Part shown: one piece after another, positions 14,680 through 24,712 of the stretch
Layout of the letters: each line of letters opens with the position of its first letter
How positions within the stretch are numbered: position 1 is the stretch's first letter
DNA from: Actinocrinis puniceicyclus
GTDB lineage: Bacteria > Actinomycetota > Actinomycetes > Streptomycetales > Catenulisporaceae
Reading direction: 5' to 3'
Length of the DNA: 64,000 bases
Assembly: GCF_018283645.1 (NCBI RefSeq)
Contig: NZ_JAGSXH010000004.1
Location: 1 to 64,000, forward strand
Translations under genes and position numbers: made by a program
The notes under the pieces: generated by a model
Told to the model about the DNA's origin: nothing
The model's input: the letters and a program-made list of their open reading frames with translations, nothing else
Database searches by the model: none

Positions 14680-14720
14680 TTGATCACACCCTGATCACCG
14701 CTTGATGCGAGCCTTGATCC
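14680..14720. promoter_or_regulatory. Helically phased TTGATC/TGATCA repeats
   Basis: Four TGAT(C/G) cores, most as TTGATC or TGATCA, start at 14681, 14692, 14703 and 14715, an 11-12 bp spacing that places them on one face of DNA. They lie about 110-145 bp upstream of the first gene of the membrane-protein operon and about 220 bp upstream of the divergent GGDEF gene. An activator or nucleoid-protein array is plausible. The remainder of the 367-bp gap between the two divergent genes shows nothing else I can name. Confidence 0.55.
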
Positions 14721-14826
14721 GATCGTTGCTCAATCCGTGTGCTCTGCGCTGCCGCACGGGTGTATGAATATCTGGCTATCGAGCGGGGCGCTCGCGAAAC
14801 TCGAGAAAATTCAGGGGAGGGGCGGG

Positions 14827-15837
14827 GTGGACGATTCTTCGATCACGCCTTCGGGCAGTACGGATCCAGCTCGTGCCGCAACGGCGGGAAGTACCGACCC
14901 GGCCGGGCCGTCGCCGTCATTCGGTCAGGAGCCGACGATGACTTGGGGCGGTGAGGGTGGGGCGAGCCCGGGTACCGCGGCCGGCTCTCCGACAGCATCC
15001 GTGGTATCCGCATGGGGCGGCGGATTCATCGGCCAAGGCGCCCTCATGGCGCCGCCGGATCCGCCGGCCTCCCCGCCGGCGGCCAAACGGCGTAGCAGGA
15101 CACTAATTGCCACCGTCGTCGGCGCGTCGTACCTGGTGCTCGCCGCCGGTACCGCGGCCGCCGTGGTGGCCGTCGCGTCGCCCGCGCCGGTCGACGTCAC
15201 GGCGTTGGCCTCGGGCTCGGCCGCCGCGACCGCAAGCGGCGCGGGAGGTCGTTCCGCCGGCGCGAGCGCCACGGCATCCGCCTCCGCGTCGCCCTCCCCG
15301 TCGCCGTCGCCGAGCCCGAGATCCACGGTGGTCGGCTCGGTGCACAACGGCGTACACTCCGGCGATCTGCGCTACTTCCTGCTGCCGCCGCCGAATTCAC
15401 CCAGCTCGATCCAGGGCGATCCCGACGGCACCGCGGAAACCCTCAGCGACGTGCTGAAGGGGTACGGCGGCTCGTCCGACGTGAAGTCCTACCTCCAGCA
15501 GGCCGGTTTCAAGCGCGGCGCGACCCGTACCTACCAGGACAGCAAGCTCGGCGCCAATGTGAGCATCGAGTTGCTCCAGTTCGATTCCAGCGACGGAGCC
15601 GACAGCTGGCTTCAGGGCTTTTATCTCAGCGGCAGCGGCTGGACCTCGTTCTCCGTCCCCGGTGAGGGCGGCGCCAAGGCGCGGGAGAAGAAGTCCGACG
15701 GAGCCGACAGCCTGATCGGCGTGTACGCACAGGGCGACACCTTTTATCAGATCACGGTCTTCGGTACGCAGGCCCTTCCGCACGGCGACCTGTCGGATCT
15801 GATGATCGCAGAGCACGGAAGGCTGGCCCATGGCTGA
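14827..15837 (+). CDS. Single-pass membrane protein, paralog 1 of 4
   Basis: The product is 336 aa from a GTG at 14827, chosen for GGGGAGGGG just upstream; ATG codons at 14737 and 14764 are in frame but lack an SD. About 90 residues of Gly/Ser/Pro-rich cytoplasmic sequence precede one membrane helix (about 92-118, IATVVGASYLVLAAGTAAA). A Ser/Pro linker (SASPSPSPSPSP) leads to an exported domain containing SGDLRYFLLPPP (about 185) and SIELLQFDSSDGADSWL (about 246). The LLPxP and LLQF motifs recur in the next three genes. No known domain is recognised. Its stop overlaps the next start by 8 nt. Confidence 0.8.
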   Translation: MDDSSITPSGSTDPARAATAGSTDPAGPSPSFGQEPTMTWGGEGGASPGTAAGSPTASVVSAWGGGFIGQGALMAPPDPPASPPAAKRRSRTLIATVVGASYLVLAAGTAAAVVAVASPAPVDVTALASGSAAATASGAGGRSAGASATASASASPSPSPSPSPRSTVVGSVHNGVHSGDLRYFLLPPPNSPSSIQGDPDGTAETLSDVLKGYGGSSDVKSYLQQAGFKRGATRTYQDSKLGANVSIELLQFDSSDGADSWLQGFYLSGSGWTSFSVPGEGGAKAREKKSDGADSLIGVYAQGDTFYQITVFGTQALPHGDLSDLMIAEHGRLAHG

Positions 15838-16681
15838 GCACACGCAGTGGGAGGCCGAGAGCGCGTCCGATGCGCAAGCCGCGCCGGACGCCGCCTCCGC
15901 GCCGATGCCGATGCCGATGTCAGAGCCCGAGCCCGTGCCGATGTCAGAGCCCGAGCCCGAGCCCGAGCCGATCTCGGCGCCCGGCGAAGCCGCCGCGGGC
16001 AGGAAGCGGACCGTCAAGACCAGGACACTTTTCACCGGGGCGGTCGTGCTCGGCCTGGTTGGCGGCGCATCGGCCGGATACACCGTGCAGGCGCTGCGCA
16101 CACCCACCCCCCTGCCGCCGCTGAGCGTCGCGCAGCCGCTTTACCCGCTCAGCCCGATCTACGACGGCGTCCGGACCGCGGGGCTGCCCACGTCGCAGGA
16201 CGACGCGACGGTCGTCGACGGCGATCTGACCAAGCTCCTGCTGCCGACGCCCGCCGGCGCGACGGCCACCATCGACCACACGTGGATGGATCTGCTCGGC
16301 GAGGCCGACACGTGCGACGACACCGCGTCCTGCTTCGACACCGATCTGCACGACGGCGTCGCGCGCATCGCGGACACCGCCTGGATGCGCGGCGACGGCC
16401 TGTTCGAGGAGATCCGGATCCTGCAGTACCTGCCGGGTCATTCGAGTTACGCCGACCACGGGCTCAACGATCTGCTGGCCGGTGGCGGCGCGAAGCTGAG
16501 CATGCCGGACGGCATCGCCGCGGCCGGGAAGGAGACCTTCGACTCACACCACGAATACGACGACCATGCGGTCTCGGTGCACGGCGACCTGGCCGTCTAC
16601 TTCTGGGTCACCTCAGCCACCCACGTACCCGATCCGTCCATCATCAATGATCTGATCAAGCGGCAGATGGTGAGGCTGTGA
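15830..16681 (+). CDS. Single-pass membrane protein, paralog 2 of 4
   Basis: The product is 283 aa. A cytoplasmic N-terminus with Met/Pro/Glu/Ser repeats (residues 26-48, PMPMPMSEPEP...) precedes one helix at about 66-86. The exported domain has the family motif DGDLTKLLLPTP (130-141) and EIRILQY (194-200). Two cysteines, C162 and C168, could form a disulfide. The ATG overlaps the end of paralog 1 by 8 nt, so translation is coupled. Function unknown. It is more diverged than the others (ILQY instead of LLQF). Confidence 0.8.
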   Translation: MAEHTQWEAESASDAQAAPDAASAPMPMPMSEPEPVPMSEPEPEPEPISAPGEAAAGRKRTVKTRTLFTGAVVLGLVGGASAGYTVQALRTPTPLPPLSVAQPLYPLSPIYDGVRTAGLPTSQDDATVVDGDLTKLLLPTPAGATATIDHTWMDLLGEADTCDDTASCFDTDLHDGVARIADTAWMRGDGLFEEIRILQYLPGHSSYADHGLNDLLAGGGAKLSMPDGIAAAGKETFDSHHEYDDHAVSVHGDLAVYFWVTSATHVPDPSIINDLIKRQMVRL

Positions 16682-17517
16682 TGGAGGTCGAGAACCAGAC
16701 CGAGACCGGGTTCCAGGCCGCCGAGGCGACCGCGGACACCGGCACACCACCGTTCACCGGCGCCGCACCGCGCTCAGTAGCGCGCGGCAGGGCGCTGATA
16801 GCGGCCGGAGCCGTGCTGTCCATCGCCGTCGGCGCGGCGGCCGGCACGGTCGTCGTGCGGCAGCGCGAGGACAGCAACAAGCGCGCGATCGCCGCGGCTC
16901 AGGCCGCGGCGGCCGCCAGGCCCGCGCCGCTGACCGGCGGCGTGCGATCCGACGGCTCACACTACGGCTCGCTTTTCGCTTACCTGCTGCCGCTTCCGGA
17001 CGGCTACACGCCGGGGCCCTACGACGCCGACTACGGCGACAACGGCTACGTCCCTGCCGCGCAGATCACCAGCCAGTTGGAGGACCTGCTCTCCGGCATC
17101 CCGAAGTCCGACCTCTCCAATGCCAAGGGCGCGCTGGCCAACACGCACCTGAAGGGCGTCGCGGTGCGCACGATGGAGAGTTCGGCGTCGACCGCCGACC
17201 TTGTCGTCTCGATCGAACTGCTCCAGTTCGACGTGAAGGACGCCAAGAACGCGGCCACGAGCTTCACCAGCCTCGTCTCGGACCTCAACGTCTTCCGCAC
17301 CGGCCCCACGGTGCCCGGATACGCGCAGGCCAAGTGCGTGCTACCGCCAGGGCTCGGCAGCGACAAGCTCGACGAGATGCTGTGCGTCGCCTCGAGCGGG
17401 GACGTCGAGATCATGGTCGACGCCCAGGGAAGCGCGCCGCTCGACCAGAACAAGGTCGCCACGCTGGTCGCGCGGCAGCTCGACCAGCTCAAGACCGCGC
17501 AGAGCATTGATGAGTGA
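16681..17517 (+). CDS. Single-pass membrane protein, paralog 3 of 4
   Basis: The product is 278 aa from an ATG that shares one base with the TGA of paralog 2 (GTG at 16678 is an alternative). One helix at about 38-59 (ALIAAGAVLSIAVGAAAG) is followed by a charged/alanine linker. The exported domain has SLFAYLLPLPDGY (97-109) and VVSIELLQFDVKDAKNA (175-191). Two cysteines, C219 and C235, flank a Pro/Gly loop. It lacks the long Pro-rich cytoplasmic tail of paralogs 2 and 4. Function unknown. Confidence 0.8.
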   Translation: MEVENQTETGFQAAEATADTGTPPFTGAAPRSVARGRALIAAGAVLSIAVGAAAGTVVVRQREDSNKRAIAAAQAAAAARPAPLTGGVRSDGSHYGSLFAYLLPLPDGYTPGPYDADYGDNGYVPAAQITSQLEDLLSGIPKSDLSNAKGALANTHLKGVAVRTMESSASTADLVVSIELLQFDVKDAKNAATSFTSLVSDLNVFRTGPTVPGYAQAKCVLPPGLGSDKLDEMLCVASSGDVEIMVDAQGSAPLDQNKVATLVARQLDQLKTAQSIDE

Positions 17518-18487
17518 GGCCGCGATGACGACTGACGCAGGACTTCCCGAAGGGGCCGCCGCCGCGGTCGACCCGGCCGCCGAGTCGGCGAAGGCGCCCG
17601 AAACCGGTTGGGCCGCACCGAGCGCCGACCAACCGCCGCCCGCGCTGCCGCCCGCACTGCCGGTCCAGCCGATCGAACCGATCGATCCGGCCGCGCTCGA
17701 AGCCGCGCGGTTGCAGCGCGAGCAGGACGCGGCACGCCGAGCCCGCCGCCGTCGCAATGCCCTGCGCTGGGTGGGCGCGGTCGCCGTGACGATGGCGGTC
17801 GGTGGCGGCACCGCGTTCGCGCTCACGCTTCCGCAGCGCACGGACATGCCCGGGCTGGCCACGGCGCCGGACGGCCGTTACGCCTTCCCGGCGCTCACCC
17901 TGCCGACGCTCCCGGCCGGCCAGCCCGCGCCGAGCGCGTCGGCGAATTCGATGGCGCAGCAGCATCTCGCCGACATCAGGCGACTGCTGCTGCCGCGACC
18001 GACCGGTGCCGGCGCCCAGGGCGTCAAGTCCGCGGTGGACGGCTGGCTCGCCGATCCCTCGCCGCTGTTCGTCGCGCAGGACAGCAAGTCGATCTTCGCG
18101 GAGTTCGGGCTGCGGCACACCGCCGCGGAGAGCTGGAAGACGCCCGACGGCGCGACGACGACGGTCTACCTGCTCCAGTTCACCGACGCCTTGGCGTCGA
18201 GTGCGGCGCTGACCAAGCTGAGCAACGACGACTCGACGGTCGATATGACCCCCTCGCTCTCGGCGGCGCTGACGGGCGTGCCGAGCAACGCCCCGTCGCA
18301 CGAGATCAACCCTTACGGCGGGGTGGACGGGGATTACACGCCCGTCAGCTCCGGCGGCGAACTCACCAGATACGGCACGTTCCGCTCTGGCGACATCATC
18401 GCCGTGGTGATCGAGTCGGGCCCGGCGAAGCTGTCGTTCGCCGCGTTCCAGCAGGTGATGACGCTGCAGGCGGAGCTGCTCCAATAG
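17510..18487 (+). CDS. Single-pass membrane protein, paralog 4 of 4
   Basis: The product is 325 aa from the ATG at 17510, which overlaps paralog 3 by 8 nt; an ATG at 17525 with TGAGG ahead is an alternative. The first 60 residues are Ala/Pro rich (PPPALPPALPVQP), followed by an Arg-rich stretch and one helix at about 86-107. The exported domain carries LADIRRLLLPRP (153-164) and TTVYLLQFTDALASSAAL (218-235). No cysteine pair is seen. It is the last gene before the terminator at 18508. Function unknown. Confidence 0.8.
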   Translation: MSEAAMTTDAGLPEGAAAAVDPAAESAKAPETGWAAPSADQPPPALPPALPVQPIEPIDPAALEAARLQREQDAARRARRRRNALRWVGAVAVTMAVGGGTAFALTLPQRTDMPGLATAPDGRYAFPALTLPTLPAGQPAPSASANSMAQQHLADIRRLLLPRPTGAGAQGVKSAVDGWLADPSPLFVAQDSKSIFAEFGLRHTAAESWKTPDGATTTVYLLQFTDALASSAALTKLSNDDSTVDMTPSLSAALTGVPSNAPSHEINPYGGVDGDYTPVSSGGELTRYGTFRSGDIIAVVIESGPAKLSFAAFQQVMTLQAELLQ

Positions 18488-22483: not shown

Positions 22484-24529
22484 TCAGCGCACGAGGTAGG
22501 ACTCGCGCTCGGGCCCGGCGGAACGGCCGTTGAGCCAGCGGGTGGCCTCGGGCGCGGGCAGCGCCTTCGCCAGCAGCCAGCCCTGCGCGGCGTCGCAGCC
22601 GAGCGCGGCGAGACGGTCCCAGGTGACGTCGTCCTCGACCCCCTCGGCGACCACGTGCAGGCCGAGCGAGTGGGCGAGGTCCACGGTCGAACGCACGATC
22701 GCCGCGTCCTCGGGGTCGTGCGCCAGCCGGGCGACGAAGGACTTGTCGATCTTGATCTCGTTGACCGGGATCTTGCGCAACAACACCAGCGAGGAGTAGC
22801 CGGTGCCGAAGTCGTCGAGAGAAAGGCGCACGCCCAGCGCCTCAAGGCCGCCGAGCGTGGCGGCCGCGCGCTGCGGGTCCTCCAGCAGCACCCGCTCGGT
22901 GATCTCCAGCTGCAGCGCCGTCGGCGGGACACCGTACTTGAGCAGCCCGGCCTGGATCGCCGGGACGAACCCGGGCCAGTGGATGTCGCGCATCGAGACG
23001 TTGACCGCTACCGGTACCGCCAGACCCGAGCGCCACCAGCGTGCGACCTGAGCGAGCGCCTGGTCGACCACGTACGCGGTCAGTTTCGGCATCAGCCCGG
23101 TCTGTTCGGCCAGCTCGACGAACTCCTCCGGATTCACCGCCCCGCGGGTGGCGTGCTGCCAGCGCACCAGGCCCTCGAACCCGACCACCTGCCCGGTCGC
23201 GAACGCCACCTTCGGCTGGTAGTGCAGTTGCACCTCCCCGGCCTCCAGTGCCCGGCGCAGGTCTCCGAGCAGGGCGAGCCGGTCGGGGGTGTTCAAATCC
23301 CGGCCGGCCTCGTAGCAGGCGACGACCGAACGGGACTTCTTCGCCAGGTACATCGCCACGTCGGCGCGCTGCAGCAGCTGCTCGAACTCCTCGGCGTGGT
23401 CGGGATAGAGCGCTACACCGACCGACGCCTCAAGGTCGAGCGTTATCCCGTGCAGCGGGAAGGGGTCCTGGAAGATCTCGGCCAGGCGGTGCGCCGCCTC
23501 GACCGCCGCCAGCTCGTCGGGCACGTTCGGCAGCAGCACCGCGAACTCGTCTCCGCCCAGCCGGGCGACCGTCTCCCCGGCCCCGACCGCGCAGCCGAGC
23601 CGCTCGGCGACGACGCGCAGCAGCTCATCACCGGTCAGGTGGCCGAGAGTGTCGTTGACCTCCTTGAAGCGGTCCAGGTCGAGCAGCAGCAGTGCCACGT
23701 GCCGCCCGGTGCGCGCGGCCTCCGCGAGCGCCTGCTCGCCGTGTTCACGCAGCATCTTGCGGTTGGGCAGCTCGGTCAGCTCGTCGTGACTGGACTCCCA
23801 GTCGCGTTCGCGGCCGACCTCGGCGTTGCCGTGCACGATCAGCAGCACGGGAACGAAGAACGGCAGCAGGCCCGGGTCGCTCAGCGCCACCGACGCGACC
23901 AGCGGCGCGAGCGCCACCATCGCGCCGGTCGCCTTGACCTGGTGCACGGCCTCACGCCGGATCAGGTCGGGCAGCGGCACGCCACTGGACAGGCTGAGCG
24001 CCGCCCAGACGAACAGGTGGTTGGCCGTCGCGTACACGATCCCCGCGGCCAGCAGCGCGAGCGAGCGGTGCCAGCCGAGCGCGTCGCCGATCTGCAGCGG
24101 ATGCTGGAAGAAGAGCCCGAACACCAGGCCGCCGAGCGCGAGAGAGACCGCGTACTGGGTCACGTTGAAGGTGGTGCGCCACCAGCTGTGCCGGTTGACC
24201 ACAGCGCACACCACCACCGCGGCGCCCTGCGCGAGCGCGGCGGCGTGCCAGCCGCACAGGCTCAGCAGCGCCAGCGAGAACGCGACCGCGGTGGTCGAGC
24301 CGTCGTGCTCGTGCCGGGCCAGCACCGGCCGCAGCTCGCCGACGACGACCAGCAGGCCGAGCAGCCAGGCCGCGCCGGAGCCGCGCAGGTGCCCGCTGTT
24401 CAGGTCCTGGATCACCCGGGCCGCCGCGTAGCCGATCACGCAGGCGCCGGCGACGTTGGTCAGCAGCAGATAGGCGCGGAACGCGAGCGGGCGCGCGACA
24501 GCGTCAGTACGGTGCACCGCCTGCGCCAT
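22484..24529 (-). CDS. Membrane GGDEF-EAL cyclic di-GMP protein
   Basis: The product is 681 aa from an ATG at 24529 with GAGGG close upstream. The first about 230 residues form six or more hydrophobic segments (AYLLLTNVAGACVIGYAAA, GAAWLLGLLVVVGEL, SVALSDPGLLPFFVPVLL). GGDEF follows (about 240-400: ELPNRKMLREHGEQ, DLDRFKEVNDTLGHLTGDELL, active loop ARLGGDEFAVLL). EAL follows (about 415-665). The signature reads FEGLVRW rather than EALVRW, with NVSMRDIHWPGF, LEITERVLL and LDDFGTGYSSLVLL intact. It may be bifunctional or have one active domain. It is the second c-di-GMP protein in 12 kb. Confidence 0.88.
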   Translation of the reverse strand: MAQAVHRTDAVARPLAFRAYLLLTNVAGACVIGYAAARVIQDLNSGHLRGSGAAWLLGLLVVVGELRPVLARHEHDGSTTAVAFSLALLSLCGWHAAALAQGAAVVVCAVVNRHSWWRTTFNVTQYAVSLALGGLVFGLFFQHPLQIGDALGWHRSLALLAAGIVYATANHLFVWAALSLSSGVPLPDLIRREAVHQVKATGAMVALAPLVASVALSDPGLLPFFVPVLLIVHGNAEVGRERDWESSHDELTELPNRKMLREHGEQALAEAARTGRHVALLLLDLDRFKEVNDTLGHLTGDELLRVVAERLGCAVGAGETVARLGGDEFAVLLPNVPDELAAVEAAHRLAEIFQDPFPLHGITLDLEASVGVALYPDHAEEFEQLLQRADVAMYLAKKSRSVVACYEAGRDLNTPDRLALLGDLRRALEAGEVQLHYQPKVAFATGQVVGFEGLVRWQHATRGAVNPEEFVELAEQTGLMPKLTAYVVDQALAQVARWWRSGLAVPVAVNVSMRDIHWPGFVPAIQAGLLKYGVPPTALQLEITERVLLEDPQRAAATLGGLEALGVRLSLDDFGTGYSSLVLLRKIPVNEIKIDKSFVARLAHDPEDAAIVRSTVDLAHSLGLHVVAEGVEDDVTWDRLAALGCDAAQGWLLAKALPAPEATRWLNGRSAGPERESYLVR

Positions 24530-24712
24530 CCGCCCTCGCCCTGGTCTCTCGCGCGTCCCGGCCGACGCCGCGCGGCCGGCATGGAAGGCGCGGCCGCGGT
24601 CTCGGTGCGCTGCGCCCGGATCCGACCGACCCAGATTATTCGCAAGGCTCGTACTCCCGCGAGGGCTGGCGGCAGATCGTGACTCAAACAAGCCTGATTG
24701 AAAATGGCAGGA

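Follow-up and report, generated by a model that had tools for sequence, protein, structure and literature searches.

Four tandem genes of Actinocrinis puniceicyclus, here called A, B, C and D, form an operon that is real, ancient and unnamed; the fold of its products is already known, and its arrangement in several genes is new. Neither Pfam nor NCBIfam has a name for the set, and we found no paper on it. Coordinates are those of the window, meaning the whole stretch of 64,000 nucleotides analysed, unless another locus or contig is named.

Gene layout and predicted topology

The four genes lie on the + strand and each of them is predicted to encode a type II single-pass membrane protein: A (336 aa) at 14827..15837, B (283 aa) at 15830..16681, C (278 aa) at 16681..17517 and D (325 aa) at 17510..18487. 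Gene A probably starts at the GTG at 14827, as a ribosome-binding site precedes this codon (GGGGAGGGG). The coordinates of C correspond to an ATG start, and an alternative GTG start at 16678 is equally possible because Streptomyces genes of this set regularly overlap by 4 nt (GTGA). The original prediction gave overlaps of 8, 1 and 8 nt in four tandem genes, and the reading frames agree with it: A/B overlap by 8 nt, B/C by 1 nt (4 nt with the GTG 16678 start) and C/D by 8 nt. The extent it gave, 14680-18487, holds for the coding part from around 14827 onwards; the part beginning at 14680 is included upstream region and is not coding. The in-frame third-position GC is 0.81-0.91 for the four genes, and A-D are translationally coupled tandem genes.

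Regarding the topology, hydropathy gives one hydrophobic helix per protein, with 3-7 Lys/Arg within the 15 residues on its N-terminal side, so that by the positive-inside rule the N-terminus is predicted to be cytoplasmic. The transmembrane helices are at aa 98-116 of A (15118..15174), aa 71-89 of B (16040..16096), aa 40-58 of C (16798..16854) and aa 88-106 of D (17771..17827), all on the + strand like the domains that follow. A head, one helix and an exported domain are therefore predicted in each protein, as originally described, the cytoplasmic head being 39-97 aa long and the exported domain 162-194 aa. Both motif boxes reported earlier were recovered in the same order. They are LLPPP (15379-15393) and LLQF (15571-15582) in the exported domain of A (15337..15834), LLLPTP (16235-16252) and ILQY (16418-16429) in that of B (16193..16678), LLPLP (16984-16998) and LLQF (17218-17229) in that of C (16933..17514), and LLLPRP (17984-18001) and LLQF (18170-18181) in that of D (17939..18484). 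Their spacing is also similar, namely 64, 61, 78 and 62 aa in A, B, C and D respectively.

Paralogy and fold of the exported domains

A, B, C and D are true paralogues, with homologous exported domains that fall into four ancient orthologous groups. The B, C and D domains are only 20-27% identical to that of A, and single-sequence BLAST gave one clear match, A-C (3e-9), among the three comparisons run. Profile-profile comparison with hhalign, using profiles built from orthologues out of 20 genomes, linked all six pairs of domains: the E-values were 1.5e-19 for A-B, 2e-18 for B-D, 7e-17 for A-C, 2e-11 for A-D, 3e-10 for B-C and 1e-5 for C-D. A maximum-likelihood tree of 75 domains contained one clade per gene (support 96/85 for A, 81/87 for B, 100/99 for C and 100/99 for D) and paired A with C and B with D (97/90). 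Since each orthologous group forms one clade, B, C and D are older than the split from Streptomyces. The tree and the conservation described below also agree with the earlier view of divergent copies rather than redundancy, that is, old non-redundant lineages that have been retained together. A scan of the genome found no fifth copy.

The AlphaFold2 model of the A domain had a pLDDT of 95 and a pTM of 0.90, and the weaker model of the D domain had a pLDDT of 80 and a pTM of 0.79. The top PDB match of both was 4ESQ, the sensor domain of PknH from M. tuberculosis, with E 1.6e-5, probability 1.0 and TM 0.51/0.45 for A, and E 7.6e-4 and TM 0.44/0.42 for D. The second match of A was TiME (7CU8/7CU9), with E 2.8e-4 and probability 1.0; for D, TiME again came after 4ESQ, with E 0.05 and probability 0.9. 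According to these models the exported domains of A and D share one fold, that of PknH_C and TiME, with A fitting it well and D less well, and by homology B and C probably have it too. Identity of A and D to the PknH_C/TiME structures is 8-13% and the TM-scores are about 0.4-0.5, which indicates a shared fold and not close kinship. Weaker matches of the A model to PsbP, LpqN and Mtc28-type structures (2vu4, 6e5d and 4ol4; E 0.03-0.2, partial overlap) suggest a shared superfamily, and we claim no membership there.

No family could be assigned by sequence. The scan of Pfam and NCBIfam gave no match of A-D above the family cut-offs, and we discarded the sub-threshold VirB8 and PARP matches of D and B, which lie in the helix region or the low-complexity head. 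Searching solved structures by sequence with the domain profiles gave no match either. The PknH_C model, PF14032, was absent from the Pfam matches of 64 domains at E 0.1, and in a scan of the organism's own genome its best score, 11.3 bits against a curated cut-off of 27 bits, fell elsewhere in the genome. A profile comparison with the mycobacterial PknH_C domains reached a probability of 9.5% and E 0.0034, with a full-length alignment in the expected register: LLPxP pairs with LLLTASE, and LLQF pairs with the V-x-FP strand, so that the landmarks of PknH_C (LLLxxxE and V-x-FP-x-x-x-A) align with our two motifs. As PF14032 does not recognise the proteins and this profile match is weak, we treat A-D as a new family, similar in fold to PknH_C and TiME but belonging to neither of the two. 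DUF7373 (PF24088/PF24092), itself uncharacterised, matched weakly in 7 of the 64 domains, scattered among the relatives (best 6.6e-4), and may therefore be distantly related; the majority of the domains gave no match to it, among them the A and D domains of the window, nor did the full-length A-D. The original statement that no known system has this form thus stands in that no characterised family claims the proteins by sequence, while the fold itself was already known.

The likeness to PknH, which extends to the extracytoplasmic position of the domain, suggests that A-D might be a set of sensors, i.e. PknH-like receptors without a kinase, whose outer domains bind small ligands and which signal via their heads or via a separate Ser/Thr kinase. 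The PknH sensor domain is reported to have a cleft that has been proposed as the binding site of a small molecule (PMC4118811, PMC3601408), and a single-pass topology with a cytoplasmic part would suit a receptor. Nevertheless, PknH is a receptor kinase, whereas A-D carry no Ser/Thr kinase on the chain (no Pfam domain above cut-off) and no kinase gene stood beside the operon in the loci examined; furthermore, the window has four tandem copies. The heads contain no known domain, and in Streptomyces they vary more than any other part of B, C and D (2.0-2.4 bits of entropy, uncorrected for composition), which argues against signalling through them. PknH_C has two disulfides, and its four cysteines are conserved in most mycobacterial members, whereas the exported parts of A and D have no cysteine and those of B and C have two each (in C an invariant pair, domain residues 135 and 151). 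On balance we consider the sensor explanation rather unlikely.

The match to TiME suggests instead a conduit, in which the domains would form a ring or tube carrying proteins or nutrients across the wall. TiME (Rv3705c / MSMEG_6251) likewise has an N-terminal hydrophobic helix and one domain of this fold. It assembles into rings that stack, it has effects on secretion and uptake, and in its full-length form, with the N-terminal helix included, it makes a pore in membranes (PMC11434571). However, TiME is found mainly in the cell wall and capsule, and its helix is signal-peptide-like and right at the N-terminus (PMC11434571), whereas the helices of A-D are preceded by 39-97 residues. These long cytoplasmic heads and the conserved helix suggest retention in the plasma membrane. 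Moreover, TiME is a single homo-oligomeric ring protein of Mycobacteriaceae and the window has four paralogues. We therefore regard a TiME-like conduit as unlikely.

Conservation and surroundings of the operon

Among 13 other genomes sampled in the family, C was found in 12 and D likewise in 12. We examined the surroundings of the operon in 11 family genomes, and it adjoins gatB in each (11/11), with B below the tblastn threshold in 2 of them, for one of which a named copy (L077) does show B. Gene A was seen in the Actinospica/Catenulispora family only. D-type domains were present in 178 of the 295 genomes sampled from the order (around 60%), mostly Streptomyces, where the operon has three genes, BCD, and occupies another conserved site, with LmeA, rhodanese, DUF1416 and DsrE on one side and nitrobindin, Fur and YgfZ on the other. 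Thus, the four-gene order is conserved in other genomes of the family, and as BCD in Streptomyces. The S. coelicolor orthologues probably lie in the stretch SCO4168-SCO4179, where the literature places a FabG-like gene (SCO4168), an XRE-DUF397 pair (SCO4176/77) and nitrobindin (SCO4179). We set aside the expression notes on SCO4173/4174, since neither is tied to a B, C or D orthologue.

In 74 of the best 80 named loci, which come from a pattern-based scan and are skewed to close relatives, B, C and D were all present, and the other 6 run off contig ends. The overlap in these loci was exactly 4 nt at 73 of 74 B/C junctions and 74 of 75 C/D junctions. We also looked at the corresponding sites of 12 order-mates without D: in most of them, both flanking genes being visible in only part of the 12, the DsrE and nitrobindin genes are close together, with a few hundred bases between them and no detected remnant of BCD, which indicates that the block comes or goes whole. 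The complete loci, the 4-nt overlaps and the closed-up empty sites are the strongest evidence that these genes are one functional unit. They also bear on another alternative, namely independent surface binding proteins that share an operon and form no complex. The strong divergence of the domains, seen in the low identity to A of the other three, would fit such binders, and in some Streptomyces an extra B-D pair without C, directly upstream of the BCD operon (L094, L134, L138 and L049, the last two probably being one genome), indicates that the stoichiometry is not rigid. Yet full triplets in every untruncated locus, clean absence elsewhere and near-universal overlaps are not what independent proteins would lead us to expect, and we find this alternative very unlikely.

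Beyond the order, a search of 397 genomes of the phylum gave one match, in G326 (L059:1501-1920, +; E 5.7e-9). This is a distant single-copy relative; its frame looks secreted, and the hydrophobic stretch follows the domain, so that the order is opposite to that in the window. A short D-like match in genome G022 (L060, C19:57461-57703) covers 68 positions of the profile, within a frame of 92 aa, and is perhaps a decayed copy. D-type domains had no match in phages or plasmids, and we rejected a mobile element.

The operon was originally described as divergent from a PAS-GGDEF gene. This is correct for the window, and the gene is also the divergent neighbour in three Actinospica-type genomes, but it does not flank the annotated Catenulispora locus, which has a dehydrogenase there, or the Streptomyces loci examined, with their DsrE and nitrobindin genes. 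The PAS-GGDEF gene is a partner by position only. That the operon could be the output or target of this protein, as a surface system controlled by cyclic di-GMP, would draw on that neighbourhood; as the neighbour is not conserved and the operon is conserved without it, we rejected the link and hold it to be extremely improbable. A GGDEF-EAL gene lies beyond gatA in the window (22484-24691, -), so that the ABCD-gatB-gatA region has a cyclic di-GMP gene on either side. Between D and gatB, one Actinospica-type genome has an ORF of 301 aa that matches no Pfam family (L031:6938-7843, -).

Upstream of A, the alignment showed only patchy conservation. In Streptomyces loci such as L140, L111 and L126, the interval that separates B from the divergent DsrE gene contains a conserved block, CGAATCGTAATCAAC...ACAACC...TTGGCCATGGGTCTC. 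No regulator was recognised in the upstream alignments before A or, in Streptomyces, before B.

A putative surface assembly

The reading that we prefer, and to which we give about an even chance, is that A-D (BCD in Streptomyces) make up an obligate, membrane-anchored, hetero-oligomeric surface assembly. In each subunit, a cytoplasmic head of variable, low-complexity sequence would be followed by one helix, then by a juxtamembrane linker and, on the outside, by one domain of the PknH_C/TiME fold. Translational coupling would cause the subunits to be made in matched amounts, these would pack via their helices and juxtamembrane segments, and the outer domains, aligned as a hetero-oligomer, would act within the cell envelope on some ligand or cargo. 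In Streptomyces the entropies of helix and linker were 0.82 and 0.98 bits in B and 0.75 and 0.91 bits in D, against 1.49 and 1.35 bits for their domains and 2.04 and 2.23 bits for their heads, values that are uncorrected for composition and in which hydrophobic helices score lower partly for compositional reasons. This conserved helix and linker together with variable heads suggests packing within the membrane and directly above it, as well as an outward-facing role, at least for B and D; in C the helix and linker are not more conserved than the domain. That the subunits form a hetero-oligomer is what we infer from these patterns, and the coupling and all-or-none loss also fit proteins of one pathway that never touch.

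A ring shape and a role with cargo or ligand are speculative and are suggested by analogy with the TiME rings and the PknH cleft. The most specific version, a plasma-membrane-anchored hetero-oligomeric ring or conduit of three or four ancient TiME-like paralogues, reaching into or through the thick wall of Streptomyces and their relatives, seems to us distinctly unlikely. Some points also speak against the preferred assembly: the likeness to PknH_C and TiME is one of fold, TiME is a homo-oligomer, and Streptomyces have no mycomembrane.

Should the subunits indeed make up a single complex, antibiotic producers would have a new envelope machine, and the PknH_C/TiME fold, studied so far in mycobacteria, would be a wider actinobacterial building block. 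A ring or conduit, if true, would amount to an envelope machine in bacteria that lack an outer membrane. The operon is accessory, as its clean empty sites indicate, and small, and therefore it is well suited to a single-deletion test in Streptomyces.
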